A DNA stretch of 64,000 nucleotides from Omphiscola glabra (Eukaryota; Mollusca; Gastropoda; Lymnaeidae): positions 15,561,784-15,625,783 of the forward strand of contig OZ024808.1 of assembly GCA_964017045.1 (NCBI GenBank), written 5' to 3'. Below the pieces are notes generated by a model, which ran no database searches, was not told the DNA's origin, and worked only from the letters and a program-made list of their open reading frames with translations. Positions 1-64,000 of this stretch are shown one piece after another. Every line of letters begins with the position of its first letter. The stretch's first letter is position 1. A program made the translations under genes and the position numbers.

Positions 1-3000
1 TACACCTCAAACGGGGAATGTTTAGGAACTGAAGAAATCACATACAAGGACAGGGGTCAACTTCTTTCAACAATCCTCAGTGACCTGCTCAACCCTGTTG
101 AGTTCATGAGCCAGGCACTTCAGCTTAATCAAGTGTCCCCAGAAATGATTGATGCGAAGCTGGCCTTTTGGTTTAGATACAAAGATGGTGACACTGCAAG
201 GACTGAGTCGCAGAGAATCATGAATCAGTGGGTGAAAGTTATCAAGTGCACCAAAGGTATTAGCCCATGAAAAGACATTCGCACATTAAATGGCAGTTTT
301 ATCATAAATGTTTTTATACAAATTTGCTTTCACTTCCAAAGCAAAAAAAAGAACGGTAAATGCGAAGAGATAGCACCGCGTTTTTTACCATGGCCGCCAA
401 CTTGATTGCAGTGACCCGTAAAATTAAGAATAAAACGTTTAAAAATAATGAAAAAATTTCCTAAATGTATCCCTAAACCTAACCTGAACCCTAAATCTAT
501 CCTTAAACCTAACCTGAACCCTAAATGTTTTGCAAACGAAGTCACGGTGCTATCTCTTCACATTAGCGAAAAGGACTTTTGGTTGTAACTTTTTTTGTAA
601 TTTTGGTTTGTCTATGTGTAAAAGAAAGGGTGGTTTTGCAAAGGGTGGTTAGTGTTGTTAAGAACAGGACAGTAGTTCTTTGAAGATTTGGCAAAATATA
701 TATTTGTATTAGGTTAATGTGAAATGAATAATATTAAGTGACTCTAAACTATCTCCTAATATTTTGCTTTCATAAACCCACTTACCACATTTTCGTTCTT
801 GTCCTGTCAAAAAATTGGGGTTTATGGTAACCTTTTTTTTGTAATAAGGCATGTTAAATGGGATAGGCTTAATTAATTTTTAGATGTTACCAAAGCATTT
901 TTCTCTTCTCTCTTTCCATGTCGAAATATATATATATATATCAACAGGCTCAGTGACCAGTTCTTGCCAGGAGCTTCCAACTCTTCTGCATTTGTCTGCC
1001 AAATACAACCTGAGTTTGTTGGCTGAGAGTCTGCTCACACACCCCTGGGCAGCGTTGGCTTTAAAAATGCAGAACAAAGATGGCCTCCGGCCTGACCAAC
1101 TGGCACTCAAGTACCATCACAACAGCCTCTCAGAGTTTCTGGCTGCTGAAAATGAAGTAAGTGCAAAACAATCTGTGTTAATTCAAAATTTATTTTATAG
1201 TTTCTAATATAAAAACATCATTTCAATTTGTAACAAAATTATTTGTATGGATTGCTATTTAAAATGAACTTAATTTATTAGAAAGTAAATAATTATTACA
1301 ACTGAATACATAAAATTAAATAATTTTTAAATTTTGTTTGCTATTTTTATTTTAGGCTGATAATTCGTCATCATGTAAGTAAAATTGTTTTCTGGTTTGG
1401 CCTAAACATGTTGAGATTATATTCAGTGGCATCACCAGAGTTAAAGTATTTAAAATATTTCACTAAGTATTCAAAAAGGCAGTGTCTAATATGAGAAAAA
1501 GTATTTAGATTTTGTACTGGTGAAAAGATTGTATTTGTGAATGATTGTATATAATTCTGTTCTAAAATTATTTCATGAAAAAAATTTGATCTAAAAAAAT
1601 TTTCACAGTTTTATTTGTTTACAAATTTACAATGTAACATGACATAAAGTTATTTCCATATTTTCCAGGTGATGACGAGGACATCTATGTACATCCAGAC
1701 TACTGTACACCTGGAGGACTTTTAACACCAAATGAAGGAGATGCAATATTCTATTTCGACTTTGACTTTGGTAGGAACATCCTAGATTTTCATTACTAAA
1801 ACTGCGCTATGATTGAATTAATTACATACTTCAATTTAAGTTTTACCATAATTATTTTTGTGGATATCTTAATCAAGTTTCAATCTTAATTTTCTTGAAT
1901 TTCTATTTAAACTTTCAAAGATACCAGAAGGTTCAGAAAGAATTCTTCAAGTAGTTCAAAAGATGAAAACAACAGCAATTCTGTAAGTAAATTAATAAAT
2001 TTATGTTAATTCTCTAAACCAGTGAATTATTTTGAATGAAGATGTGATGATGATAAAACTATATATAGTGGCACATAGTTTTCAATTAATTAAATTTTAT
2101 TTTCAGCTGCCACAATCATGATTGAATATCATTATTTTCCTTCTTTTTTTTAAATTTAGAGTAAGCCCAGTCCAACCTGCCCTCCTGTTTGCACCCCCAG
2201 AAGAAAACCTCCACCAGTTCCCTATGTTAACACATCTCCTCATTCATCACAACGTCCGTGTTCTAAAAACGCTGCAGAGACCTCACTCACAGAAAAGCCA
2301 GTACCAATGCTTTCCAAAGCAACCATTCATGGCCGACATCACAGTTTAGATTCTGCTGACACCCAAGGTAAAGAAGGATCAACACGATCATTTGAATCTG
2401 TGGTGCAGCAACCACGCCCTAAACCACGGCAAAGTGTTTCTGATAAAGTGACAAAGTCCTCAAGATCTTCTGGTGAATCATCAGCTGGCCGACCAGCCAC
2501 GCCTCCAAGACCACCCCAACCTTTAAAAGTATTTGTTAGTCCAGAAAGCAACCAGAATGATCCACCCAAGTGCACGGTTGTCAGTCATCAAAGCAGCGGT
2601 GACTATATACTTATGCAACGTTTAAGGCCAAACTTCTTGATGCCACATCCTAGAGTACGTCGATCTAGTGTATCCCTAACACTGCAGCAAAGTCATTCCC
2701 AAAAAGCATCACCTCTCAAAAGCAGTTTATCACTTTCTGGGCTCAATGAGAGAGAAGATGAAATGAGCTTTACTCTGACAACTAGAAGAGCTGCCAAAGA
2801 TCTTGCAATGAGCCCTAAGGCTCCAACGTTCCTCGGAACTATAACACCCTCACATTATGCTTCCAAGCCCAGGCGAAGTCTACCCCAGTCACCCTTAGCT
2901 TCTCCTGCTTCTCCATCCCCACCACCACTACCTGCGACCCCACCTCCCCGCCATGCCAACTTACCACCAATATCCTATCCACAACAACCCCTAAATTCAA

Positions 3001-6000
3001 ATCATAAACAGACAGGTCAGTCAAATCCTATGGGATATTCTCAGGGGCCAGCACATCCACAGCCACATGTTGTTTATTTGACCAAAAGATGTCCCAGCTC
3101 AAGAAAATTTGCAGACCTCGGTGAAGCTACTGGTGGACATGACGATTTGTCACCTGATTTCTCCCAGCCAATCGATGTGCATTTTGATGATGTCCCAACC
3201 GCAAGAGCTCTCCCTTGTGGTACGTCACGACTTTGAATTTCTAAAAAAAATGTATTTTAGGTTATAAAATACTATAGTCTTAAAATAGTATTAAAAAGTA
3301 TTTCCTCACTAATTTAAATAATTCATAAAAGTCAAGATTTGGGATAGGGCTTTGGGTTCAGAGTTCTAACGGTATCTAAATTGCTGTTCACTTCTCTTCT
3401 AATTACTTATAAGTCAAAATGAAATGGCTCGGTGATGGTCTGTGGGGTAGAAGCTTCAAACTGTTCAGGGATCTGCTTAAGGCACATTTATATGTCTCAC
3501 TAAATAAAACACAAATTATGATTAAAACATTGCATACTAAATTTCAGTCTTTAATTGGACCCTGAAGCCAAATTTAAGTCTAATTTAAATACTGTGCAAT
3601 TTGTTTTTGCAATAATACAACAATCAAATAAGAATACTTTTTTTTTTTTTAAATCCATAAACTTGCAGTTAATTTGACTAAGCAAATGTTATTAAAACAA
3701 TCAATTTGTATTTTGTGTTCATAGATTATATCACACCAATTGATGATGAAGAATCCATATATGAAGACCTGGACAGCCGGTGGGAGGTAAATTGTACATT
3801 TGCTTTGAATGCCTTGTTAGCCCTTAAGCAGTTATTAAATTAAGAACATATTCTTATGGGTTTCATGAACCTAAAATGTATGTTTTCAAAGTTAAATTCA
3901 ATCAGCTACAACAAACTTGACACAACTTATTCCGGCCATCCCAGCAAACAATTATCTCACCCCACAGAAGCCAGGCCGATCAATTGGAGCCAAACAGTCA
4001 CTTAACACTGACTTAACATCTGAGTTTATTGATGCAGCAACGTACCTAACCAGAACCAGAACTTATGCTTGACACTAAGGCTAATTTTAAATAAATGTAA
4101 GGGGGGAATAAGTCAGTTCTGTAGGGCACTTCCGTCTTAGAACAAGCTCACAATGGACAAACATTCCACAGTAGGTGCATTTACTCGTGGACTTTTGCAA
4201 GGCTCTTTTGTTTTCATGGGGTTCAACACTATTTGTCCACACTGGATGACAACAAGTAGGCATACTACAAACATCAGACTAAAACACTAATGCTCTTTAT
4301 TTACATGGCTGTACTAGATAAAAAGGACGCTAAATTTCCATTAAAATCCTAGGTAAATTCGCACCAGAAGTACCTCGCATTTTACTATGGCCGCCATCTT
4401 GGTTGCCTAGACCCGCGAACTTTTACGTGTTCACGGGTCGGGGCAACCAAGATGGTGGCAGGGGAAAAATAAAATAATTTATATTTTTGCTAAAATTACG
4501 AATAAAAAATTTAAAAAAATGACCTAAATCTATCTCTCACCCTAACCTGAACCCTAAATCTATACCTAAACCTAACCTGAACCCTAAATCTATCCCTCAC
4601 CCTAACCTGAACCCTAAATCTATCCCTCACCCTAACCTGAACCCTAAATCTATCCCTCACCCTAACCTGAACACTAAATCTGTCCCTCACCCTAACCTGA
4701 ACCCTAAATTTATCACTCACCCTAACCTGAACCCTAAAGAGGGTTTTGACCCTTTGGAATCAGCGTTTTCACCCTCTCCCTAACCTAAAAATTAGGAAAA
4801 TGAAAAAAAAAACAAAGAAAAATGGCCAAAATTAATTATAAAATAAAGAAATAATGAAAACCCAACGTACAGTTTCATGGAATACACTTTTACACACTTT
4901 ATTTCAGTTTCCATCGACAATAATATCCAAAAATTAATGAAACACATTCTGGTCATCATCCAAATTCATTTCATGGCAGAGCACATTAACATATTGATAA
5001 GCCAACCAATGAAAATTTTAAAATTATAATTAATAAACCAATAAAACATGCCACCGTCATATTAATGAAAATGTAACTCTATAAAAAATTAAATAAAGGG
5101 AAGTGACTCCCAATAAACACGCACATGAAGTCAAGGTACTCCTTGTATGAAATAGCCAAATCCTGCTCTACATTGACACTAATGCTCTTTTGACACACTG
5201 GCTACCACCAGCAAACTAGAACTCACATAGCACTTCAATAACTCCAGGGCTCCCAACATAACTATCTTGGCACTCTTGTTCAAACAGCCTTTCAAAACAT
5301 CACTTGTTTATTGACCATCCATAACTCAAACCAATCACAACTAGCCCTCACAAAACTATTCACCAACTTATTATCAACAACTATTCCGCTCTAATGAAAA
5401 TTGGTAAATATGGCATGGTGTTTCTTTAGTAATAGTGAACTGAAATAACGTCCATACTAGAAATTTAAGTCAAATTTTGAAAGAAAAAAATAATATATAA
5501 ACCAAATTAAAATAGTATTTCACAATTAAAATTATCAAACTTGTATCCTGAATATTTTTCATGATTTTTAGATGGCACATGAAGGAGATGTTTCTTTTAT
5601 AAGAGCCAAATCTACAAGAGGGAGACAGGTAAGTGGGCACATAAAGACAAAGGTGCTTTTACCACGTTTTTAGAATTTAAAAACTGTTTTTTGTTGACAA
5701 TTTATGCCAAAAACATTGAACCTTGTATTTTTATGATTCTATAACTTTTTAATTTATTAAAATAGCAAGTATTTCATTTCCAATAAGTGCTTATATGTCT
5801 TTTATCTTAACTCTACAACTTATGTCTTTTATCTTAACTCTACAACTTATGTCTTTCATCTTAACTCTACAACTTATGTCTTTCATCTTAACTCTACAAC
5901 TTATGTCTTTCATCTTAACTCTACAACTTATGTCTTTTATCTTAACTCTACAACTTATGTCTTTTATCTTAACTCTACAACTTATGTCTTTTATCTTAAC

Positions 6001-37844: not shown

Positions 37845-39290
37845 GTCTAAGCTAGAACGAGAACTACAAAATCTAAGCTAGAACTACCAGTACAACATCT
37901 AAGCTAGATCTACAAAATCTAAGCTAGAACTACCGGTACAACATCTAAGCTAGATCTACAAAATCTAAGCTAGAAGTACCGGTACAACATCTAAGCTAGA
38001 TCTACAAAATCTAAGCTAGAACTACTGGTACAACATCTAAGCTAGATCTACAAAATCTAAGCTAGAACTACTGGTACAACATCTAAGCTAGATCTACAAA
38101 ATCTAAGCTAGAACTACTGGTACAACATCTAAGCTAGATCTACAAAATCTAAGCTAGATCTACAAAATCTAAGCTAGAACTACTGGTACAACATCTAAGC
38201 TAGATCTACAAAATCTAAGCTAGAACTACTGGTACAACATCTAAGCTAGATCTACAAAATCTAAGCTAGAACTACTGGTACAACATCTAAGCTAGATCTA
38301 CAAAATCTAAGCTAGAACTACTGGTACAACATCTAAGCTAGATCTACAAAATCTAAGCTATAACTACCGGTACAACATCTAAGCTAGATCTACAAAATCT
38401 AAGCTAGAACTACCGGTACAACATCTAAGCTAGATCTAAAAAAATATAGACTAGAACTACTGGTACAACATCTAAGATAGATCTTCAAAATCTAAGCTAG
38501 AAATACCGGACAACATCTAAGCTAGATCTACAAAATCTAAGCTAGAAATACCGGACAACATCTAAGCTAGATCTACAAAATCTAAGCTAGAACTACCGGT
38601 ACAACATCTAAGCTAGATCTACAAAATCTAAGCTAGAACTTCTGGTACAACATCTAAGCTAGATCTACAAAATCTAAGCTAGAACTTCTGGTACAACATC
38701 TAAGCTAGATCTACAAAATCTAAGCTAGAACTACCGGTGCAACATCTAAGCTAGATCTAAAAAAATATAGACTAGAACTACTGGTACAACATCTAAGATA
38801 GATCTTCAAAATCTAAGCTAGAAATACCGGACAACATCTAAGCTAGATCTACAAAATCTAAGCTAGAACTACCGGTACAACATCTAAGCTAGATCTACAA
38901 AATCTAAGCTAGAACTTCTGGTACAACATCTAAGCTAGATCTACAAAATCTAAGCTAGAACTACCGGTACAACATCTAAGCTAGATCTACAAAATCTAAG
39001 CTAGAACTTCTGGTACAACATCTAAGCTAGATCTAAAAAATCTAAGCTAGAACTTCTGGTACAACATCTAAGCTAGATCTAAAAAATCTAAGCTAGAACT
39101 ACCGGTACAACATCTAAGCTAGATCTTCAAAATCTAAGCTAAAAATACCGGACAACATCTAAGCTATATCTTCAAAATATAGACTAGAACTACTGGTACA
39201 ACATCTAAGATAGATCTTCAAAATCTAAGCTAGAAATACCGGTACAACATCTAAGCTAGATCTACAAAATATTGGCTAGAAATAGAACTA
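37845..39290. repeat. 46-bp dimeric satellite downstream of SURF2
   Basis: About 31 tandem units. Each 46-bp unit is two related halves, one ending AAGCTAGAACTACCGGTAC and one ending CATCTAAGCTAGATCT. The halves share the core ATCTAAGCTAGA. Variants (ACTGG, TTCTGG, ACCGG without TAC, and ATATAGACTAG) recur in blocks, which indicates local amplification. It fills the space between the convergent SURF2 and LRAT gene A and ends about 100 bp from the LRAT stop codon. Confidence 0.95.
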
Positions 39291-39386: not shown

Positions 39387-42300
39387 CTAGTTGGGCTTTT
39401 CATTCCAGGCATTTTTAATGAGAGCTCCAACCGACAAGATCCCAGCCACTGTGGCACCTACTGGTCCCCCGATCAGAAATCCTCCAATCATTGGTCCAAG
39501 CGTCAGGCCAGCTACTATTTGTCTGGACTTGATTGTTTGAAATAAAATCAAATAAAATTAAAATTGGCATTAACTTAACTTTCTGAATGAAAGAGTAAGA
39601 AAACTAGAAAATAAAAATGGAACTTGTTCTCACCTTAGTGCGTCTCTCTTAATAACGAATTACAGGACTTAAAAATACTAGTTGATGTTGAACCATTTCT
39701 TATTTTACAATAGCACACACAACATATAATTAGGCCTATTACCTGAACACTTATCTCCTCACCATAGCGACACCATCTGGCAAAGTGCTCACAATTCTTG
39801 TAGAGTGCATGGTATTCGATGATGCCCAACAAGCTTTCCGCACGTGCCACAATTTTATCAGGAGGCAAAGGCCTAAAAGAAATTAAAAGGCCAACACATC
39901 CATGTAATATTATGTTATAGGAATTTTATGCTAGACAGTATTTTGTATTTAATTATTAGCTAAATTTATTTCTTTACCAGTAGCGTGTCTAGGAGAAAGC
40001 TCTTCGGCAGCACTAACAACTTTTATTTTGTATAGAACAAGAGTGTCACAGTGTGTGTTGGGGAGGGTGCACAGTTTTGGGAGAGTGCCCCGGTTGGCAT
40101 TTAGTAAAAGTACGTGCGCCCTTGTCTTCACCTGTTGATCTCTTTCTCTCATCTTACAACTGCAAATGACGAGATTCTTAACAAATTATTTGTTCTCATA
40201 CTAGGTGGAATACTCAGTCCAAGTAGTCGAGTAGCTGTCAACAAGACTCCATGGTTTTGACAGCCATCGAATACTTTTAAATGAATACCAGTATCAAGAT
40301 TCTATAATTAATGAAACAAAACCAAAGAGATAGTTTAGAGTTTTGTTTATCCGAAATCTTCGATGCAGGTCACATGAGAGTGAAGTCAAACAAAAATAAT
40401 ATTTATTATGTAAAACTTGTATACGCCCCTGATTCAAACGCAATATACGTGCAAGAAAGATCTATGTCTCCCAACAAAACAACCGCAGAGTCTGTTAATG
40501 AACGGAACTACAATATTTTTTGCCTGCACTGACACAAATAGTATTCTACTACAAGAAGCTCTGCATTTGAATCAAAAAGCCGCCCCTCCCCTCGATATAT
40601 AGCAAAAAGTGACACCCAGGGCGGACCTCCCCTTTTCTACGCCACTGATTGATCTCTAAAGCAGAATACCCACCTGCAAGACAATCGTGTACTTTTATTC
40701 GAAGTAATCGAAGCGACAGTTTTCAAATTTTCAGTCAATTTGGTTAGTTTCGCGAAGCGAGTACATGTTTTTAACTTATGGGTCTTATCTATTACTATTT
40801 TACTGTACGCTTGTTAGTTTTAACATAATAATTATGTGCAAAATTCTGGGGTTTTTGTTTTAAAAAAGGAAATTTATAAATTAAAATAAAAGCTCGATTA
40901 GGTTATCATTTTGTCAAAATCCACAACCGGTTGCAGATTTTGAAACCACTTTCCGGAATTCATGTTATCATTTGACACCCTTTTCTTCTATTGCAATACG
41001 GAAGTACGGTTTCGTGTGCTTACATTTTGTGTATATCCAAGTCATTTCCTAGCTCAATCTCATCATTCTGGGCGACGTCGAAGATGTTTTCTATTAAGAC
41101 GTAACTGTCTTTTTTCCGCAGAATAGAACCGCTTGACGGTCTGTCAGCTAGCTGTGTTCTCTTGCGGGAGTAGCCCTGCATGGAAACAGCACCAATTGGG
41201 TAATTAGAAGGAACGTGAAGACTTGGGTATATGTGTGCAACATGATCATTTGGGTGATGATGTGAGTAGGTGGACGTACCGGTAACCTCTGTGTAACGGG
41301 GTGAGTAGGTATCACCTTCGTTACGGGTCGAGGTTTCTCTCACCCCGGAGACAGACATGGATGTTCTAAAAAACGCACCATCTTCGTTGGGGACCTGAAC
41401 ATGGATTACAAGAGAGTCACCTGGGGAAAAAAAAAAAAAAAAAAATTCCTTTTAAAAGATTTTTTTTAAGCCTTAAATTTCGAATAGTAATAGAGAAGAC
41501 CCATTAGTTAAGTTGAATTTGCTCTATAACGTTTATGAAACAGCTCTAAATAATGGCAAGCTGCATTAATTTGAACATGAACTACATACTACTGTAATAC
41601 TACTAGTACTGAGTTGTATTAATTAGAGCGAGTTCATGGGACAATGTTATTATGACGTTAATTCCTACAAATGATAAGATACATTAATATAGATAAAAAA
41701 TACCGATACTATTTTGGGACTTCAGTATATCGGGATGATTACTGTAGAATTTGTGAATAATGGGATGTACATTCTGTCGGGACCCCCCTCCTCCAAAATG
41801 CACCTCTTGATTTTGAAATAATCACACATTTTCTGGGGAGAGGCTCTCCTGACTGCCCCCAACCCATTATGCTCAGGAGCCATCTGGAGCCTCAATGTAT
41901 GCCCCACTTCCCAATGTAATGACGGTATACCTGGCTGCCAATTTTTGGCCCTAATTATATATATATATATATATACTGCCTAATGGCGTTGCTAGTGATT
42001 CGTGCCGCCTTGATTAAACATAGAATTTGAGGTAACGGCGTTTTAAAAATGCAACAAAATGACTTTTAATTCATTCATTTAACTTGACAGTGAAAACTAA
42101 AAAATCCTGTTCGTCAAAGATGCCAGCTTGTCATTCACTTCATTAAAATCAGACATTTTCACCTAATTAAATTCAACTGACAAAAACGCAAGACCGAAAA
42201 GTCTGGCCTGTTCCATGGTAGATCGCAAACAGCTCTTATTTTAAGTTTCCGTTTTCGAAAGTTCCTCTCACACGAAGCCACAGTCCCACAGATCATTAGA

Positions 42301-45300
42301 AGTAATACATTTTTAAATTAATGTATTCTTATTGACAGTATTAGGAGAGATTCTAGAAAGTTCACTTCAACTGAAATTCCTTAAATTAAAAAAAATATTG
42401 ACAAATCTTTGGCTCCGTTGAGATTAATATCTGCTGCTTTCACATGCCTTCACAGCCTTTATATTTTTTTATTAACAAAGTTTTATGGAAGGTGATAACC
42501 AAAGGCTTAGTCTTGTAAATATAACAATGCAAATATCTTAAGAAAAACATTAAAATTGTCCATGCTGTAACGCATTGGATTAAGCCCTGAGCTAAAACGA
42601 TAAGAAAATTAAAGTCACATAGTTATATCTGTGTTTTCAATAGGTTTAGACTCTTCAATAGGTAAGCAGTTGGCCAGAGACTGCTAAGAAGACTTGGGTA
42701 AAAGTAAAAAGATTTAACACACAACGATAACATTTATTTCATAAACAAAACAGAGATGTGGAAAAAGCCCTTAAATTGATGGTTCTGTTTTTTAAGCTAA
42801 GCTCTATTTAGGAGAAAAGTTGAATTTTATTTAATTTCTTTATGAAATTTTCACTTAGAATACCGTTTACCTATTAAAATTGAGTTTGAGTTTTTCTGAT
42901 GTGATCGCCGCTAAATCCTGACCCCATTGCGGGCTTCACAGATTTAAGCTACGCCATCTTATGGAAAAATGTCCCTCCCCCTTTTAAGTTTTCGCGAGGT
43001 GTCATCCGGTGCAGCCCGCACCCCCCCCCCCGTAACCCCCTAGTAACGCCACTGCCCGTCGTACATTCTAAGGCAGTGGTTCTCAACATTCCTAATGCAG
43101 CGACCCTTTAAGTTAAGACAGTTCATCATATTGTGGCGACCCTTAACAACAAAATTATTTTCGTTGCTACTTCATAAATGTAGAGCATATGTATTTTCCG
43201 ATGATCTTAGGCGACCCCTGGAAAAGGGTCATTCGAGCCCCAAAGGGGTCGCGACCCACAGGTTGAGAACCACTGTTCTAAGGCGTCCAATTAGGCTATA
43301 GAGTTTTTAAATCTATTGCATTGACTGTATTGAATTTGAGTTCATTCAAATAATATTTGAATATATATTAAAAAGATGCAAAGAAAGGTATACATTATAA
43401 GTAGAACTAGAATAGATAAAATGTTAAAATTATTTTTAAAAAATACATCACCTATATAGACTGCCCAGTGTTTCAAAAAAGTACATCACCTATATAGACT
43501 GCCCAGTGTTTCAAAAAAGTACATCACCTATATAGACTTCCCAGTGTTTGAAAAAAGTACATCACCAAAAAGACTGCTCAGTGTTTGAAAAAAGTACATC
43601 ACCTATATAGACTTCCCAGTGTTTGAAAAAAGTACATCACCTATATAGACTCCTCAGTGTTTGAAAAAAGTACATCACCTATATTGACTGCCCAGTGTTT
43701 GAAAAAAGTACATCACCTATATAGACTGCCCAGTGTTTGAAAAAAGTACATCACTATATAGACTGCCCAGTGTTTGAAAAAAGTACATCACCTATATAGA
43801 CTGCTCAGTGTTTGAAAAAAGTACATCACCTATATAGAGTGCCCAGTGTTTGAAAAAAGTACATCACTATATAGACTGCCCAGTGTTTGAAAAAAGTACA
43901 TCACCTATATAGACTGCCCAGTGTTTGAAAAAAGTACATCACCTATATAGACTGCCCAGTGTTTGAAAAAAGTACATCACTATATAGACTGCCCAGTGTT
44001 TGAAAAAAGTACATCACCTATATAGACTGCCCAGTGTTTGAAAAAAGTACATCACCTATATAGGCTGCCCAGTGTTTGAAAAAAAGTACATCACCCATAT
44101 AAACTGCCCAGTGTTTGAAAAAAGTACATCACCTATATAGACTGCCCACAGTTTGAAAAAAGTTACATCACCTATATAGACTTCCCAGTGTTTGAAAAAA
44201 GTACATCACCAAAAAGACTGCTCAGTGTTTGAAAAAAGTACATCACCTATATTGACTGCCCAGTGTTTGAAAAAAGTACATCACCTATATAGACTGCCCA
44301 GTGTTTGAAAAAAGTACATCACCTTTATAGACTGCCCAGTGTTTGAAAAAAGTACATCACCTATATAGACTGCCCAGTGTTTGAAAAAAGTACATCATCT
44401 ATATAGACTGCCCAGTGTTTGAAAAAAGTACATCACCTATATAGACTGCCCAGTGTTTGAAAAAAGTACATCATCTATATAGACTGCCCAGTGTTTGAAA
44501 AAAAGTACATCACCAATATAGACTGCCCAGTGTTTGAAAAAAGTACATCACCTATATAGACTGCCCAGTGTTTGAAAAAAGTACATCACCTATATAGACT
44601 GCCCAGTGTTTGAAAAAAAGTACATCACCTATATAGGCTGCCCAGTGTTTGAAAAAAAGTACATCACCCATATAAACTGCCCAATGTTTGAAAAAAGTAC
44701 ATCACCTATATAGACTGCCCACAGTTTGAAAAAAGTACATCACCTATATAGACTTCCCAGTGTTTGAAAAAAGTACATCACCTATATAGACTGCCCAGTG
44801 TTTCAAAAAAGTACATCACCTATATAGACTGCCCAGTGTTTGAAAAAAGTACATCACTATATAGACTGCCCAGTGTTTGAAAAAAGTACATCACCTATAT
44901 AGGCTGCCCAGTGTTTGAAAAAAAGTACATCACCCATATAAACTGCCCAGTGTTTGAAAAAAGTACATCACCTATATAGACTGCCCACAGTTTGAAAAAA
45001 GTACATCACCTATATAGACTTCCCAGTGTTTGAAAAAAGTACATCACCTATATAGACTGCCCAGTGTTTCAAAAAAGTACATCACCTATATAGACTGCCC
45101 AGTGTTTGAAAAAAGTACATCACTATATAGACTGCCCAGTGTTTGAAAAAAGTACATCACCTATATAGACTGCTCAGTGTTTGAAAAAAGTACATCACTA
45201 TATAGACTGCCCAGTGTTTGAAAAAAGTACATCACCTATATAGGCTGCCCAGTGTTTGAAAAAAAGTACATCACCCATATAAACTGCCCAGTGTCTGAAA

Positions 45301-46289
45301 AAAGTACATCACCAAAAAGACTGCTCAGTGTTTGAAAAAAGTACATCACCTATATAGACTTCCCAGTGTTTGAAAAAAGTACATCACCGATATAGACTGC
45401 TCAGTGTTTGAAAAAAGTACATCACCTATATTGACTGCCCAGTGTTTGAAAAAAGTACATCACCTATATAGACTGCCCAGTGGTTGAAAAAAGTACATCA
45501 CTATATAGACTGCCCAGTGTTTGAAAAAAGTACATCACTTATATAGACTGCTCAGTGTTTGAAAAAAGTACATCACCTATATAGAGTGCCCAGTGTTTGA
45601 AAAAAGTACATCACTATATAGACTGCCCAGTGTTTGAAAAAAGTACATCACCTATATAGACTGCCCAGTGTTTGAAAAAAGTACATCACCTATATAGACT
45701 GCCCAGTGTTTGAAAAAAGTACATCACCTATATAGACTGCCCAGTGTTTGAAAAAAGTACATCATCTATATAGACTGCCCAGTGTTTGAAAAAAGTACAT
45801 CACCTATATAGACTGCCCAGTGTTTGAAAAAAGTACATCATCTATATAGACTGCCCAGTGTTTGAAAAAAGTAAATCACCTATATAGACTGCCCAGTGTT
45901 TCAAAAAAGTACATCACCTATATAGACTGCCCAGTGTTTGAGAAAAGGTACATCACCTATATAGACTGCCCAGTGTTTGAAAAAAAGTACATCACCTATA
46001 TAGACTGCCCAGTCTTTCAAAAAAGTACATCACCTATATAGACTGCCCAGTGTTTGAGAAAAGTACATCATCTATATAGACTGCCCAGTGTTTGAGAAAA
46101 GTACATCACCTATATAGACTGCCCAGTGTTTGAAAAAAGTACATCACCTATATAGACTGCCCAGTGTTTGAAAAAACCACCGTTCCTGTATATTTTGACG
46201 AGATCTCCCGCACGAAGTCTAGACACAATGTCTTCCTGGTTTCTCCTGATTCTAGCTAACCTCTCTTTTTCTGATGCAGCTCCAGCCAT
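39387..46289 (-). CDS. LRAT/PLAAT-family acyltransferase-like protein, gene A
   Basis: Four exons, 46148-46289 (ATG at 46289), 41024-41420, 39743-39872 and 39387-39527, join in frame to 810 nt (269 residues). The LRAT (NlpC/P60-like) fold is clear: AGDLVKIYRNGGFFKHWAVYIG, then GDSLVIH, and near the end YHALYKNCEHFARWCRYG. The inferred catalytic set is His42, His54 and Cys207, matching His23/His35/Cys113 of human PLAATs, but the second His to Cys distance is about 75 residues longer. The last exon encodes a glycine-rich hydrophobic segment (IVAGLTLGPMIGGFLIGG), probably a membrane anchor. Family members move acyl chains on phospholipids or retinol at membranes. The substrate here is unknown. 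Intron 1 holds the 38-bp array. Confidence 0.88.
39978..40647. mobile_element. DNA element with CAGT(A/G)GCGT ends
   Basis: Starts CAGTAGCGTGTCTAGGAG and ends with the complement of CAGTGGCGTAGAAAAGG, in intron 2 of LRAT gene A. Internal similarity (GACACC, GGGCGGACC, short C runs) links it to the elements at 50144-50484 and about 53300-53625. No transposase seen. Confidence 0.45.
41980..43054. mobile_element. DNA element with CAGTGGCGTTACTAG-type ends
   Basis: Left end CTAATGGCGTTGCTAGTG and right end complement of CAGTGGCGTTACTAGGGGG, with a C-run near the right end as in related copies. It is about 1.07 kb, AT-rich inside, without a coding frame. It sits in intron 1 of LRAT gene A, next to the SPIN-like copy 2. 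Confidence 0.45.
43074..43275. mobile_element. SPIN-like hAT non-autonomous transposon (copy 2)
   Basis: A 202-bp element starting CAGTGGTTCTCAACATT and ending GGTTGAGAACCACTG, flanked by a perfect 8-bp target duplication TTCTAAGG on both sides. Internal blocks TTTTCGTTGCTACTTCAT, TCTTAGGCGACCCCTGG and CAAAGGGGTCGCGACCC are those of SPIN/URR1-like vertebrate hAT elements. Non-autonomous. Located in intron 1 of LRAT gene A. Confidence 0.9.
43441..46177 (-). repeat. 38-bp minisatellite derived from the exon 1/intron 1 junction of LRAT gene A
   Basis: About 70 tandem copies. Read on the minus strand, each unit is the last 29 nt of LRAT exon 1 (ending CACTGGGCAGTCTATATAG, coding HWAVYI and the first base of Gly) plus the 9 intronic nt GTGATGTAC. 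The exon itself is the first unit: coding sequence runs into the array at 46176 and the used donor is at 46147-46146. Variants include units lacking two nt at the donor (TATATAGTGATG), GACTTCCC and AAAAAGAC types, which recur in blocks. Confidence 0.95.
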
Positions 46290-56769: not shown

Positions 56770-57015
56770 AACAATAATTTTTGACATGATTTGATCAAAT
56801 ATTTCCAGATTAAATAATTTTTGACATGATTTGATCAAATATTTCCAGATTAAATAATTTTTGACATGATTTGATCAAATATTTCCAGATTAAATAATTT
56901 TTGACATGATTTGATCAAATATTTCCAGATTAAATAATTTTTGACATGATTTGATCAAATATTTTCAGATTAAATAATTTTTGACATGATTTGATCAAAT
57001 ATTTCCAGATTAAAT

Positions 57016-57051
<36 letters not shown>

Positions 57052-57121
57052 TTGTAAAAAAAAAAAAAATTATTTAATCTGGAAATAATGATATTTGATC
57101 AAATCATGTCAAAAAAATTAT

Positions 57122-57152
<31 letters not shown>

Positions 57153-57235
57153 CAAATCAAAAAAAAAAAAATAATTTTTGACATGATTTGATCAAATATC
57201 ATTATTTCCAGATTAAATAATTTTTTTTTTTACAA
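56770..57235. repeat. 40-bp AT-rich minisatellite with inverted copy and poly(T)/poly(A) spacers
   Basis: Six direct copies of a 40-bp unit with TTGACATGATTTGATCAAAT run to about 57020. A poly(T) tract follows, then one inverted copy near 57066-57115, another poly(T) and poly(A), and again a direct copy near 57172-57220. The region can fold into long hairpins. Confidence 0.85.
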
Positions 57236-58617
57236 TTGTGATTTAAGATTTCATATTAAGTTTGTTTCTAGCTGCTATCATTGAGAATCATCTTCCCATG
57301 GAGTAGCCAGGTGTTGCTCTGATGTACCAGACAAGTCAACATCATCCTCATCTAACCATTCAGCGCTTCGTAGACTGTTTAAAAAAAATATATGTATAAA
57401 AGAAATTAAATTTTAAAAAATCGAAGAAAAAATGGCACGTTTTAAATTGTGTTAGATAGATCGATTTATAAATAGATTGAGTACATCTAATATCCAGGCA
57501 AAAATACATGAAACAATTAAATTTAAATAATTCATCAAATTTTGTAAAACTTACAATAAAATTGTTTTCAGGAGAACACCACACACTGAATAGTTTTTCG
57601 TGCACGCACAAAGAGGCCTTATTGTTTATTTTTGAACATCCATACCACCAAAACTATTTGTAAATGTCTTGGTTTAAATTTGATTTTTGTTTATAAAATA
57701 TCTTGATTAGACATATTTTGAAAAAAAAAGTGTATTCTTAAAGTCTTACTAATGTTTTAAAAAAACTAAAAGGAATTTTTTTTTTAATGCACCATTTCTT
57801 ATTTTTGGGGACACAACTTATCATTACCTGGTCACTGCTACCCTGCTCATAGCGACACCATCTGGCAAAGTGTTCACAGTTAAAGTAGAGGGCGTGGTAT
57901 TCCAACGTGCCCAATTTCCTATATGCTCTCTTTACAATTTCCTCTGGCTCCAATGGGCTGATAAAAAGAATACATTATTTCTTATCGAATATCTACTTAT
58001 ACTGTAACATACTTATAAGCAGGGCATTACGAAGGAGGAGGGGGGAAATTGTCTTATTTAAGTTTTTTAGAAATCTGTATTAACTCTTTCGGGATGGAGC
58101 CTTTTTGGGGTGTCAGTGCCAAGAAGAAGTCGGAGCACATTTTACAAGCTCGGCACTCATATTGAAAAAAAACTATAAAAAATAAACTATTTCCACATAT
58201 ATTCTTGTTGGAGATACAATGAATTAACCTGAAATCTCATGTGTAGACACTTCAGACACGTGTGGCATATGGAGGCCATTCAGACACCTCTGACACATGG
58301 AGGCCCTTTAGACACTTCTGGCCAATTGAGGCCCTTCAGATACCTCTGGCACATGGAGGCCCTTCAGACACCCCTTAAGGCCCTTCCGACACCTCTGGCA
58401 CATGGAGGCAAGTCAGACAACTCTGTCACATGGTTCTACTCCTTTTCCTGCCCCCGGCAATTTTTCAGTAGCTACAGACACTCAATGTAACAGACATTCA
58501 CTGTAACAGACACTCATTGTAACAGACATTCACTGTAACATGCCCCCAGCTATGACCTTGGGAACTTCTCTTAATGAGAAAGTTGTCTGCATAGCTATTT
58601 GTCTCTCTCAAAAACAT
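57149..58617 (-). pseudogene. Deleted tandem copy of the LRAT gene B 3' unit, with orphan catalytic exon
   Basis: This 1,469-bp block equals the 2,877-bp unit at 58618-61494 with two deletions. The LRAT exon (57828-57957) is intact and appears identical to 60705-60834, including NCEHFARWCRYEQGSSDQ and its splice sites. The first deletion removes the terminal membrane-segment exon, leaving only its acceptor and six exonic bases (TCTACG), so splicing to it would end STKR and stop. The second removes 474 bp of intron. No upstream exons belong to this copy. It is either a recent duplication or an unresolved haplotype in the assembly. Confidence 0.8.
58239..58545. repeat. Imperfect short tandem repeats
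   Basis: A roughly 28-bp unit with GACACCTCTGGCACATGGAGG, then copies of TGTAACAGACATTCAC. Exactly repeated at 61116-61422 as part of the 2,877-bp duplication. The plus-strand open frames here are repeat artefacts. Confidence 0.75.
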
Positions 58618-61494
58618 TTTTTCAAATCAAAAAAAAATAAAATAATTTTTGACATGATTTGATCAAATATCATTATTTCCAGATTAAATAATTTTTTTTT
58701 TTACAATTGTGATTTAAGATTTCATATTAAGTTTGTTTCTAGCTGCTATCATTGAGAATCATCTTCCCATGGAGTAGCCAGGTGTTGCTCTGATGTACCA
58801 GACAAGTCAACATCATCCTCATCTAACCATTCAGCGCTTAAAATAGAAGCATTGTCGGTGTGGGCAATAATTGCCATAAGCTCTCTCTATCCTGGCAGCT
58901 ATTCGCATTGGTCGAATCCTTTTTTGTTGAGTTAGTGGCCAGATCTTATTTCCTTTCCCCAATCTCAGACCTAAAGCAAGTCATAGGGTAGTTTCCTTTT
59001 CGACTACACGATGTTATTATTGCTACTCAATTTACTTTTCCATAATTCTCAAAATATCGTATTCCTTCTCTACCAATATCATTTATCTTGACTACACCAG
59101 ACACTTGAACCATGTCCTTGTTCCATACCTGCAACATGATCGCAAACATACCGCCCTATTGATTTGCGACAAACAGAATATACAGGTTAAGAGAGGCTTT
59201 TTAAAAAACAATTCTCTTGCACTAACTAAGTGTGGTAACATTCTGACCAGCCTTATGTAGTGCACAGACAGACACACATTAAATAAATCTTATATTATTG
59301 AAAGCCAAAAAATTATATGACTATTTACAATCATTAAACTTGTTTCTAAAAGTAATAATTAGTCAATTTTTAAGATTAAAATTTTAATAGAGAAAACGTG
59401 ATTGTTGACATCAATTAATCTGAATTTGATTTTGTTAGGACTTTTTTTTACGCTCATAAAGTCTAAGCTACAGTAATTAATTTGCATTTAAAGAAAGCTT
59501 ACAACTGAAATGATTATTGTTCTTTATTGCCACTTATTTAAAAGTCCATATATATAATATTATATGATGATCTGATACACAAGATTTCTTTCAAATGTAC
59601 AATCTAAAATGAATAACAAAAGCAATTTTATTTTTTATCAGATGGCATTTCATTCCAGGCATTCTTTAGGAGAGCTCCAACTGATACGATCCCTGCCAAT
59701 GTGGCACCTACTGGTCCACCGAGAAGAAATCCACCAACTATGGGTCCAAGGGTCAGGCCAGCTACAATTTTCGTAGACTGTTTAAAAAAAATATATGTAT
59801 AAAAGAAATTAAACTGCTGTAAATTTGAACTGAATAAAGCATTAGTGACATGTCAATTTCACAAACAAACACACACACACACACAAAGAAACTTGGTCAA
59901 AACATTCGGCTGGAAAGTCTAACTTTTAAAAGACCTTGGCTTAAAACGTGTGCGTAATTTCATTTCTCTGCAAAAATTTCAAATTTTTTTTTTTTTACAA
60001 CTACAGCGTCTTATTCCGATCAAACGTTCTTCTCACTCTAAAATATTAATCTCGTATTTACCAATCCATATTTTATTTTAAATTTTAACAGAAATAGATT
60101 TTTGCAAACCGGTACCGGTACTCGTACTCTTTTTTTTATTGCCCAACAGCTTCTAAAATTAAGCTAATTTTGAAGGTGACAAGGTTTTTTAAACCAGAAT
60201 TTTAATTTTTCTTTTTTTTAAAAAGACATTAGTCCTTGTTAATCATGAGGTAGACAGTATTGTGAAAGACTACGGTAAAAAAAACGATTTTAAAAAATCG
60301 AAGAAAAAATGGCACGTTTTAAATTGTGTTAGATAGATCGATTTATAAATAGATTGAGTACATCTAATATCCAGGCAAAAATACATGAAACAATTAAATT
60401 TAAATAATTCATCAAATTTTGTAAAACTTACAATAAAATTGTTTTCAGGAGAACACCACACACTGAATAGTTTTTCGTGCACGCACAAAGAGGCCTTATT
60501 GTTTATTTTTGAACATCCATACCACCAAAACTATTTGTAAATGTCTTGGTTTAAATTTGATTTTTGTTTATAAAATATCTTGATTAGACATATTTTGAAA
60601 AAAAAAGTGTATTCTTAAAGTCTTACTAATGTTTTAAAAAAACTAAAAGGAATTTTTTTTTTAATGCACCATTTCTTATTTTTGGGGACACAACTTATCA
60701 TTACCTGGTCACTGCTACCCTGCTCATAGCGACACCATCTGGCAAAGTGTTCACAGTTAAAGTAGAGGGCGTGGTATTCCAACGTGCCCAATTTCCTATA
60801 TGCTCTCTTTACAATTTCCTCTGGCTCCAATGGGCTGATAAAAAGAATACATTATTTCTTATCGAATATCTACTTATACTGTAACATACTTATAAGCAGG
60901 GCATTACGAAGGAGGAGGGGGGAAATTGTCTTATTTAAGTTTTTTAGAAATCTGTATTAACTCTTTCGGGATGGAGCCTTTTTGGGGTGTCAGTGCCAAG
61001 AAGAAGTCGGAGCACATTTTACAAGCTCGGCACTCATATTGAAAAAAAACTATAAAAAATAAACTATTTCCACATATATTCTTGTTGGAGATACAATGAA
61101 TTAACCTGAAATCTCATGTGTAGACACTTCAGACACGTGTGGCATATGGAGGCCATTCAGACACCTCTGACACATGGAGGCCCTTTAGACACTTCTGGCC
61201 AATTGAGGCCCTTCAGATACCTCTGGCACATGGAGGCCCTTCAGACACCCCTTAAGGCCCTTCCGACACCTCTGGCACATGGAGGCAAGTCAGACAACTC
61301 TGTCACATGGTTCTACTCCTTTTCCTGCCCCCGGCAATTTTTCAGTAGCTACAGACACTCAATGTAACAGACATTCACTGTAACAGACACTCATTGTAAC
61401 AGACATTCACTGTAACATGCCCCCAGCTATGACCTTGGGAACTTCTCTTAATGAGAAAGTTGTCTGCATAGCTATTTGTCTCTCTCAAAAACAT
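58618..61494. repeat. 2,877-bp tandemly duplicated unit (complete copy)
   Basis: The offset of 2,877 is constant between 57409-58617 and 60286-61494 with no indel seen. 57149-57366 matches 58618-58840 except in A-runs, and 57367-57408 matches 59772-59813. The unit contains the LRAT exon and terminal exon of gene B. Confidence 0.85.
59523..59528 (-). terminator. Candidate poly(A) signal of LRAT gene B
   Basis: TTTATT (AATAAA on the minus strand) about 100 nt after the stop codon. Confidence 0.45.
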
Positions 61495-63163
61495 TTGAGT
61501 GATATTTAGTGTAAAAAATAGGATAAAGTACTCAAATGGGGGTGCTTATGCCTTGAGACATAATTATAGGTCCTATAATTTCTAAAAATTCTGAAGGGTT
61601 CTGTCTATTCAGTTCAGGACCCCTAATACCAAACCAAGGGTTCCCAACATTATCGTCAACGTCATCATTTTGATCGTCTTCATTACTTTCCTGGTTGTTT
61701 TCATAAGTATCAGTGTCAGATTCACTGCTAAAATATCAAAACCACTAAGGATAGTTTGTTCCGTGTCACTGTCAGACATTTTTGAAATTTTACGATATTA
61801 CTTGCAACTCACACACAAAATATTCCCAAATACAACAAAAGCAAGTAAACAATAAACTGAGGCCATTATCGAAATGCCAGGATGTGCAGGAATATGTAAG
61901 ATGCAAACTGGTTAGCTGGTACGAATATCAACCAGCCAATCTTGAGGCTTGAATTATCGGACCGAAAGATCAGCCATTCGTCTTTTTTCGCTACTCCACG
62001 CCCGGGCCGATCCAGCCGTCTCAAAAGGGTAAGTATATACATTTTTTTCTAGTATTTCTAGCCATGGACATGCTGATTATTATACTGTAATTAATTCAAA
62101 TTATTTAAGAGCAACCGTTCACTGAATGGACATCAATACATCTATCTGATATCTATCTGTCTGTCATGTCATGTCTATGTGGATGGATGGATGCATAGAT
62201 ATAGATACAAATAAACATGGAGTTCGTCAGTCGAAATTGACTATGACCACCAGGACTTTTCCCTTAAAGCAGGGGCAGCCAACCCAAAGGGCTTCACCGC
62301 GGGCCACGTCGATAGCGATTACCCCGTTCGCGGGTCACATGCCAATACCTTATATTTAAATAAAAATCGACTTAATACTGTATAGAGTTGCTGAGTTAAT
62401 CTTATTAGTCATAAACGAAACGCTAAATAACAGAATAAAACGAAGTGAACTAATGTGATATCATTTTCATCATTTCTCTCACTCAACTTTTCATAATGAT
62501 TTTTTTGCTAACTGAATAAATCAGGCGTTAGTTGGTCTCCCCTGCCCTAGAGTTTTATCCTGATCAATCAGGCTTTAGTTGGCCGCCCCTGCCCTAGAGT
62601 TTTATCCTGATCAATCAGGCTTTAGTTGGCTGACCCTGCCCTAGAGTTTTCTCCTGAACAATCAGGCGTTAGTTGGCCGCCCCTGCCCTAGAGTTTTATC
62701 TTAAGCCCGTCTTCGGATAGAAAAGCGACGCCGATGGTCATGTCACGGGATTACCTTTTCTGTCTATCCCAATCATTGCCGAGTTCAATCTTGTCATACT
62801 GGGCGACGGCGTAGATATTTTCTTTAACGACCTTGCATTTTTTTTTCTGCCAAATCTGACGCCCTGACTGTGGTTCATCCTCCTGTCTCAGCCTGGGGGC
62901 TCTGTGGTAGTTCGGTCTCGGGTAGATAGATGATTCGTCACCTTTCTGATACCGGGGCGATTTGGTGCCATCTTGGAAACATACTGAGTAGCTGCCATCT
63001 GGGTAGCAGATTGCGTAGGTACCATCTGCATAGCTGAATAATTTGGTATTATCACCGGGGAAATGGCGAATAAATTCAGCTCTTGTTCTTCCACTAGAAA
63101 AGGAAGCGTTAAAAATTGATTGTCCGCCATCTTCTACCTGAATGTGAACGACAGATTCGTTTC
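59628..63163 (-). CDS. LRAT/PLAAT-family acyltransferase-like protein, gene B (5' partial)
   Basis: Exons 62755-63163, 60705-60834 and 59628-59777 join in frame (228 residues after a split first codon). Phases and exon borders equal those of gene A. Exon 2 begins NESVVHIQVEDGG (catalytic second His) and ends in the KIELGNDWDRQK segment. Exon 3 carries YHALYFNCEHFARWCRYE with the catalytic Cys. Exon 4 encodes IVAGLTLGPMVGGFLLGGP, a hydrophobic anchor, and ends PSDKK. The linker in exon 2 holds repeats of the YxDGxY type (YADGTYA, YPDGSYS, FQDGTKS). Exon 1 with the HWAVYIG motif was not found before 64000 and should lie beyond the window. It is a tandem paralogue of gene A, with the same orientation. 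Confidence 0.85.
61495..62275. other. Intron of LRAT gene B, no clear gene
   Basis: Includes minus-strand acidic open frames (SESDTDTYENNQ, 61570-61740) that end in stops and are one base out of frame with an upstream ATG. Possibly the remains of an inserted element. No function is assigned. Confidence 0.35.
62276..62700. mobile_element. hAT-like element whose right end is tandemly repeated
   Basis: Left end CAGGGGCAGCCAACCC with a GCGGGCCACG block. The right end, complement of CAGGGGCGGCCAACTAA, occurs about four times over 62521-62700 with a spacing of 46-49 bp, joined by AGAGTTTTATCCTGATCAAT. It lies in the intron between exons 2 and 3 of LRAT gene B. Confidence 0.55.
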
Positions 63164-63635
63164 CTGAAAAAGACAATAATTTCAAGTCAGTCTTTGGAAA
63201 CTTTCTGTTACATTTACCGATGACGCAACGTAAAACGATATTGCAAATAGAATTGCGCTATCATTACCTCCCGTGTAACAGTCACAGCGGATGTTCAGAG
63301 TATTGCCTTTCTAATCGTCTTAATTCCCAGAGAGGACGATGGCGAACAATAGCTGGGCCGTGGGGAAGTACCATGATTATTTGTCGCCCACTTTCCCAAG
63401 ATGCTTAATACAGATATTTTGATATGAAAACTGCCAATTTTGGCCACCTGTGAATAAAGCGCTCTGGGTGGATGACCTTTTCGACTCCTCCCTTTCTCGC
63501 CCCCCCCCCCTCCCCAACTCTTTTGTCCTCCTTATGTCTGAAACGAAGTCGATTTTCTCTCTTGATAAAAATAACTTTACAATCAAAAGGTTTCATAGTA
63601 ATGAGCAACATACACATTTTTTTCATAAATAACTC
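63164..63635. other. Start of LRAT gene B intron 1, no gene seen
   Basis: Searched on the minus strand for an HWAVY-type exon; none found. The short open frames on both strands near 63377-63678 have no support. Confidence 0.45.
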
Positions 63636-63639
63636 TAGT

Positions 63640-64000
63640 TGTACCCTTTCTACTCTAGTGTTACTCTCCCCATTCTAGTCGTACCCTTTCTACTCTAGCT
63701 ATACCATTTCTACTCAAGTTGAAGTTGTACCCTTTCTACTCTAGCTGCACCCTTTCTACTCTAGTTGTACTCTTTCTTTCTATAGTTGTACTCTTTCTAC
63801 TTTAGTTGTACCTTTTCTACTCTAGTTGTACCCTCTCAACTCTAGTTGTACCCTTTCTACTCTAGTTGTACCCTTTCTACTCTTGTACCCGTTCTACTCT
63901 AGTTGTACCCTTTCTACTCTAGTTGTACCCGTTTATACTCTAGTTGTACCCTTTCTACTCTAGTTGTACCCTTTCTATTCTAGTTGTACTTTTTCTACTC
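63640..64000. repeat. 20-bp minisatellite running off the window end
   Basis: About 17 copies of a unit with TCTAGTTGTACCCTTTCTAC, with some shortened (ACTCTTGTACCC) and variant units. Predicted to lie in intron 1 of LRAT gene B. Confidence 0.9.

Follow-up and report, generated by a model that had tools for sequence, protein, structure and literature searches.

The subject of this analysis is a tandem array within a 64,000-nucleotide stretch of the genome of the gastropod Omphiscola glabra (Lymnaeidae; assembly GCA_964017045.1, contig OZ024808.1, forward-strand positions 15,561,784 to 15,625,783), hereafter the window, in whose coordinates positions are given unless a contig or another stretch is named. 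On its minus strand the window carries a four-exon gene of the LRAT/PLAAT family, here gene A, in which the end of coding exon 1 and the beginning of intron 1 are repeated together about 72 times, the authentic exon 1/intron 1 junction being the outermost unit of the array. The features of the locus, with the evidence for each in brackets, are the following.

43434-46176, minus strand: 38-bp minisatellite, 72.3 copies, first 29 nt exonic and the remainder in intron 1 (Tandem Repeats Finder, TRF; cyclic alignment)
46139-46176, minus strand: unit 1, the seed, 29 nt of exon plus 9 nt of intron (sequence, cyclic alignment)
46146-46147, minus strand: first donor GT, the sole full-frame donor of 67 (translation of joined exons)
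46171-46176, minus strand: exonic tract of six T (T6) at the upstream edge of the seed (sequence)
43438-43443, minus strand: intronic T6 tract directly after the last full unit, candidate slippage partner (sequence, alignment)
46148-46289, minus strand: coding exon 1, from ATG to a phase-1 donor (open reading frame, ORF; exons of paralogs B and C share the boundary)
41421-46147, minus strand: intron 1, 4727 nt (gene model, TRF)
41024-41420, minus strand: exon 2, with the second His in VIHVQ (gene model)
39743-39872, minus strand: exon 3, with the NCEHF motif (gene model)
39387-39527, minus strand: exon 4, hydrophobic C-terminus and stop (gene model)

Joined in transcript order, the four exons of gene A form a 269-aa ORF, and all three introns are bounded by GT and AG. 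The protein matches the Pfam LRAT domain (PF04970) with E=1.6e-27 and 96.6 bits (cut-off 24.3), and its closest solved structures are phospholipase/acyltransferases of the PLAAT3 type. KHWAVYIGD, VIHVQ and NCEHF of gene A align with RHWAIYVGD, VVHLA and NCEHF of PLAAT3-type chains, the alignment at the exon 1 end extending to FFKHWAVYIGD and FYRHWAIYVGD. Gene A carries the His, His and Cys that form the active site in PLAAT enzymes, and enzyme activity is predicted. The initial annotation had spoken of amplified catalytic His-Trp codons; the His of KHWAVYIGD does align with the PLAAT His, presumably catalytic, whereas the Trp beside it is a neighbouring residue for which we know of no catalytic role. 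A search with the gene A protein returned four proteins at E<=0.001 among 1323 candidates, the only species-named homolog being a PLAAT2-like protein of the oyster Saccostrea cucullata (37% identical across 39% of the query). A second long ORF from the window gave no protein match at E<=0.001. Comparison of gene A with its neighbouring paralog, gene B, over 134 aligned codons (exons 1, 3 and 4) gave 0.22 nonsynonymous (dN) and 0.84 synonymous (dS) substitutions per site, a dN/dS of about 0.26 that sums both branches and is no proof for A alone; for exon 1 alone the values were dN 0.25 and dS 1.16. The ratio fits exon 1 being a functional coding exon, and homology supports its assignment as coding. 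A 46-bp array at 37860-39281, which TRF reported in rows of 6.6 and 24.8 copies, lies some 100 bp downstream of the gene A stop codon.

TRF analysis of the junction array revealed a period of 38 and 93% matches, and a cyclic alignment starting at 46176 resolved it into 72 full units plus 10 nt, in agreement with the roughly 70 copies initially annotated and with slightly different limits from the 43441-46177 given there. Unit 1 can be read directly as the 29 nt that close exon 1 (46176-46148) followed by the first 9 nt of intron 1, as had been proposed, with the real exon as the first unit; the 29 nt are the FFKHWAVYI codons with one extra base on each side, rather than the codons plus one base. 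The units fall into 28 distinct types, 16 of the 71 that follow unit 1 match it exactly, and runs of four to five units recur as identical blocks, the longest exact run repeat being five units. Allowing up to 8 substitutions, the 29-nt exon part was found 72 times on the minus strand of the window, always inside the array, and not once on its plus strand. Neither TRF nor the 29-nt mismatch scan of the window detected a further unit copy upstream of 46176. The array occupies more than half of intron 1. Copies of the active-site codons are present throughout it, as first noted, but they are intronic and in 8 of the 72 units TGA replaces TGG.

Many array units carry splice signals: 67 GTGAT donors are distributed across the 72 units, and GGTGATG occurs 57 times and TATATAG/GTGATG 44 times, bearing out the earlier description of dozens of near-identical donors. 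When each GTGAT donor was joined to exons 2-4, the full-length ORF was obtained from the first one only, while the remaining 66 all led to the same stop, right after codon 59 and 12 codons on. Trying all 206 GT dinucleotides of the array left the same single productive donor. Reading on past the first donor yields GDVLFSNTGQSI and then a stop, as the initial annotation had predicted; as only the first donor leaves the full-length frame, it is right that this donor decides the protein. Its pairing with U1 (TAG/GTGATG, -7.9 kcal/mol, compared with -10.4 for gene B, -6.4 for paralog C and -14.0 for the consensus) marks it as a donor of moderate strength, and as 16 units further along the array match unit 1 exactly, the donor itself gives the first unit no advantage over those. 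The 153 nt around units 1-3 folded no better than shuffled sequences (z 0.52; 138 of 200 shuffles at least as good), and, at gathering thresholds, Rfam gave no match in the window. The array offers a clean natural test of how the spliceosome chooses among dozens of near-identical donors, and the single-copy paralogs next door serve as controls.

These paralogs belong to a row of at least three LRAT genes (A, B and C) at C16:15601173-15644799 and beyond; among 18 matches, additional exon-3-like ones fall at other places on C16, and one falls on C19. In paralog B exon 1 runs to C16:15628259 (HWAVYV/G) and in paralog C to C16:15644685 (HWAVFI/G), at the same intron 1 position as in gene A, and the exon end is single-copy in both of the 9.9-kb stretches containing them. 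Given single-copy ends at a shared intron position, the array arose in gene A; among the three neighbouring genes it is specific to A, and the single-copy exon end is likely the ancestral state. With exon 1 and the first units as query, the assembly (744.8 Mb in 37 contigs) gave 71 matches, 70 of them at the gene A locus and one in exon 1 of gene B, so that the repeat does not appear as an unrelated satellite dispersed elsewhere, in a search that skips very common words, scores the best candidates only (here two) and thereby does not prove uniqueness. Intron 1 of gene B has 42-bp and 20-bp arrays of its own (63632-64000 of the window; 2916-3299 and 4721-5442 of stretch L009, one of those sampled around the window), and intron 1 of gene C has one of 25 bp, all of them lying apart from the junctions. 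Near gene B, a 1210-bp duplication of 100% identity (57410-58619 and 60287-61496) brings a second copy of gene B exon 3 downstream of exon 4; it is either very recent or an assembly effect.

The two T6 tracts, one opening the seed in the exon and the other directly behind the last full unit in the intron, are suggestive of how the array began. Slippage between such short tracts is a general model for minisatellite birth. Of 54928 positions in the array-free part of the window, 199 showed a match of at least 6 at offset 37 and 235 did so at offset 38. The recurring blocks of four to five units are the usual minisatellite pattern and bear indirectly, from one assembly, on length instability. We also considered replacement of unit 1 by another unit through unequal exchange or conversion: counting unit 1 itself, 19 of the 72 units would leave the protein as it is and 32 would alter it, 5 would introduce a stop, 11 would shift the frame and 5 would lose the donor GT, indicating that the exon end is replaceable and also at risk.

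Minisatellite arrays are clearly common in this genome. Counting arrays with three or more copies and a period of 10 or more, 12.8% of the window is array; the share is 4-16% in four stretches at or beyond its end (one of which, L009, overlaps it by about 3.3 kb) and 48%, 30% and 33% in three 10-kb stretches chosen arbitrarily from other contigs, a small sample (L031, L032 and L033; C2, C11 and C18). With such density some exon-intron junctions would be expected to fall inside array seeds by chance, so that the capture of a junction here is unsurprising; this suggests that exon ends may get caught in arrays in minisatellite-dense genomes and that gene annotation should expect it. Fifteen of the 16 arrays listed in the window share no 15-mer with window sequence lying more than 30 bp outside all 16, a test that is blind to an exon within its own array and neither establishes nor excludes further cases of this kind. 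The remaining array, 56773-57022, matches sequence at 57169 and beyond that appears to be a piece of this array's own repeat. The region 56773-57200 consists of a 40-bp array followed by poly-T runs with one inverted and one direct fragment of similar sequence.

Taken together, we put at roughly three in four the probability that the array is a minisatellite of the mirage type, a tolerated by-product and mutational hazard rather than an evolved regulator, with splicing mostly from the first donor. Mirages, named in amphioxus Adh3, are minisatellites across exon-intron boundaries (PMC3087553, PMC3902484). On this account, duplication would have begun with 38 bp straddling the exon 1/intron 1 boundary of an intact LRAT/PLAAT gene, probably by slippage between the flanking T6 tracts, and we infer that the repeat then expanded inside the intron to about 72 copies through the turnover ordinary for minisatellites, the authentic exon end presumably being kept as the outermost unit throughout. 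Splicing would proceed mostly from the first donor, because it is the sole donor giving a functional protein in a conserved-looking gene; from unit 2 onward, donors would lead to the stop right after codon 59, and the resulting mRNA would probably be decayed, with leakage into such unproductive mRNA possible. In line with this, amphioxus mirage arrays are reported to leave regular splicing intact (PMC3087553, PMC3902484).

Several points weigh against this reading. First-donor use is something we infer from the frame, and downstream repeat donors are used in human IFI6 (PMC4526556) and ABCA7 (PMC5954066), the expression of the latter dropping with the length of its variable number tandem repeat (VNTR; PMC5954066); by these precedents an effect of the array on gene A expression is conceivable. 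The T6 fit has an odd base (38 nt for the unit, 37 for the last one), the test was devised once the tracts had been noticed, and when any offset of 36-39 is allowed the T6-like background rises to 864 of 54928 positions (1.6%). Finally, with insertions uncounted, 7 of 648 cells vary in the intronic 9 nt versus 72 of 2088 in the exonic 29 nt, which could hint at constraint on the donor; because one change can be copied many times, distinct variant states were also counted, and these did not differ significantly (3 vs 23, P=0.17).

A rival reading makes the array a length-dependent tuner, its repeated donors binding U1 and competing with the first, so that the share of decayed mRNA would grow with copy number and array length would set the dose of gene A. 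All 66 alternative donors reach the same early stop, those of the 16 units identical to unit 1 are equal to the first, and the gene A donor pairs with U1 less well than that of gene B, as competition would have it. VNTR length in ABCA7 tracks lower expression, and retention of one unit was observed there, but this retention did not vary with length, whereas skipping of exon 19 did (PMC5954066). With mirages reported in amphioxus to cause no disturbance of regular splicing (PMC3087553, PMC3902484), and with a donor constraint that is not significant by distinct states, we regard a tuner as unlikely. The broader proposal, in which the copy number of an array seeded from the active-site exon end of the enzyme itself would set the productive fraction of gene A transcripts and so serve as a heritable, rapidly mutating control of dose, acting by competition between donors and mRNA decay in one of the three neighbouring genes, strikes us as quite unlikely. 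If each AG/GT unit allowed a donor to join the AG before a later donor, whole units could be shed with the junction rebuilt each time, and intron removal could advance in register, step by step, without leaving a trace in the mRNA. The possibility of such recursive splicing follows directly from the repeat, with its 44 TATATAG/GTGATG copies; TATATAG, however, is by eye unconvincing as an acceptor, the AG being preceded by T6 at a distance of over 20 nt, and a ratchet of this kind is extremely unlikely.

It is also very unlikely that gene A is decaying, its splicing already broken by the array: nothing direct points to this beyond the many competing sites that the array adds, and the four-exon ORF is intact, the splice sites are canonical and the dN/dS given above for A and B is low, with the qualification stated there. 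Inflation or misassembly of the array would concern its copy number and not its existence. Assembly is difficult where units are nearly identical, and the neighbourhood does hold the 1210-bp duplication of 100% identity; still, 28 unit types with exact run repeats of at most five units are unlike a simple assembly loop, arrays are common in this genome, and we see only the slightest chance that the count is an artefact. The mirage-type minisatellite remains our preferred reading.

The original amphioxus Adh paper is reportedly Canestro 2002, and Turri 1995 reportedly concerns the minisatellite of IFI6, whose unit is 12 bp and would keep the frame. Mirages are described in amphioxus in Adh3, the globins BflGb6 and BflGb9 and troponin C, with similar repeats in PGBD5; they hold many AG/GT signals, and that of Adh3 shows somatic instability (PMC3087553, PMC3902484). 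The gene A array shares with them a boundary-spanning unit, an outermost authentic junction and splice signals in many units. It differs in lineage and in size, having 72 units where the BflGb6 mirage has 6 and 3 in two haplotypes (PMC3087553, PMC3902484), and its splicing is predicted here from sequence. In human IFI6 (6-16, G1P3), likewise a minisatellite supplying multiple splice donors, two downstream repeat donors are used (PMC4526556) and make isoforms, whereas each downstream GTGAT donor of gene A leads to a stop; the 1995 paper on this minisatellite is cited in PMC2572611 and PMC4526556. The 25-bp VNTR in intron 18 of human ABCA7 starts at the exon 18 donor, so that its units offer donors, and one retained unit causes a frameshift and an early stop (PMC5954066). 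Both arrays multiply a donor and shift the frame when the first is missed, but the ABCA7 unit starts at GT without coding exon, while 29 of the 38 bp in the gene A unit are coding exon, and ABCA7 is backed by population and RNA data. Minisatellites of about 30 bp in human segmental duplications lie in some cases at exon-intron boundaries and alter the splicing of duplicated genes, averaging about 4 copies as against 72 in gene A; they were found between recent human paralogs (PMC2812944). Earthworm metallothionein genes likewise have minisatellite-sized arrays in an invertebrate first intron, which, unlike that of gene A, the accessible text does not describe as spanning the exon end (PMC12783039), and in C. 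elegans minisatellites are found near alternative splicing (PMC4039745).

The initial annotation knew of no described case of an array seeded across the junction of an active-site exon; amphioxus mirages, IFI6 and the ABCA7 VNTR show that the general kind is known. What stands is the detail of its placement on the active-site exon end of an enzyme: among the matches listed in the LRAT/HRASLS and minisatellite literature (titles and abstract starts, with few subscription papers), no LRAT/PLAAT gene with such an array was found. The array is best read as a new mirage of a kind already known, notable for its copy number, its position at an active-site exon end and its adjacent single-copy paralogs; should it tune expression, the ABCA7 VNTR would have a naturally occurring counterpart in a non-vertebrate.

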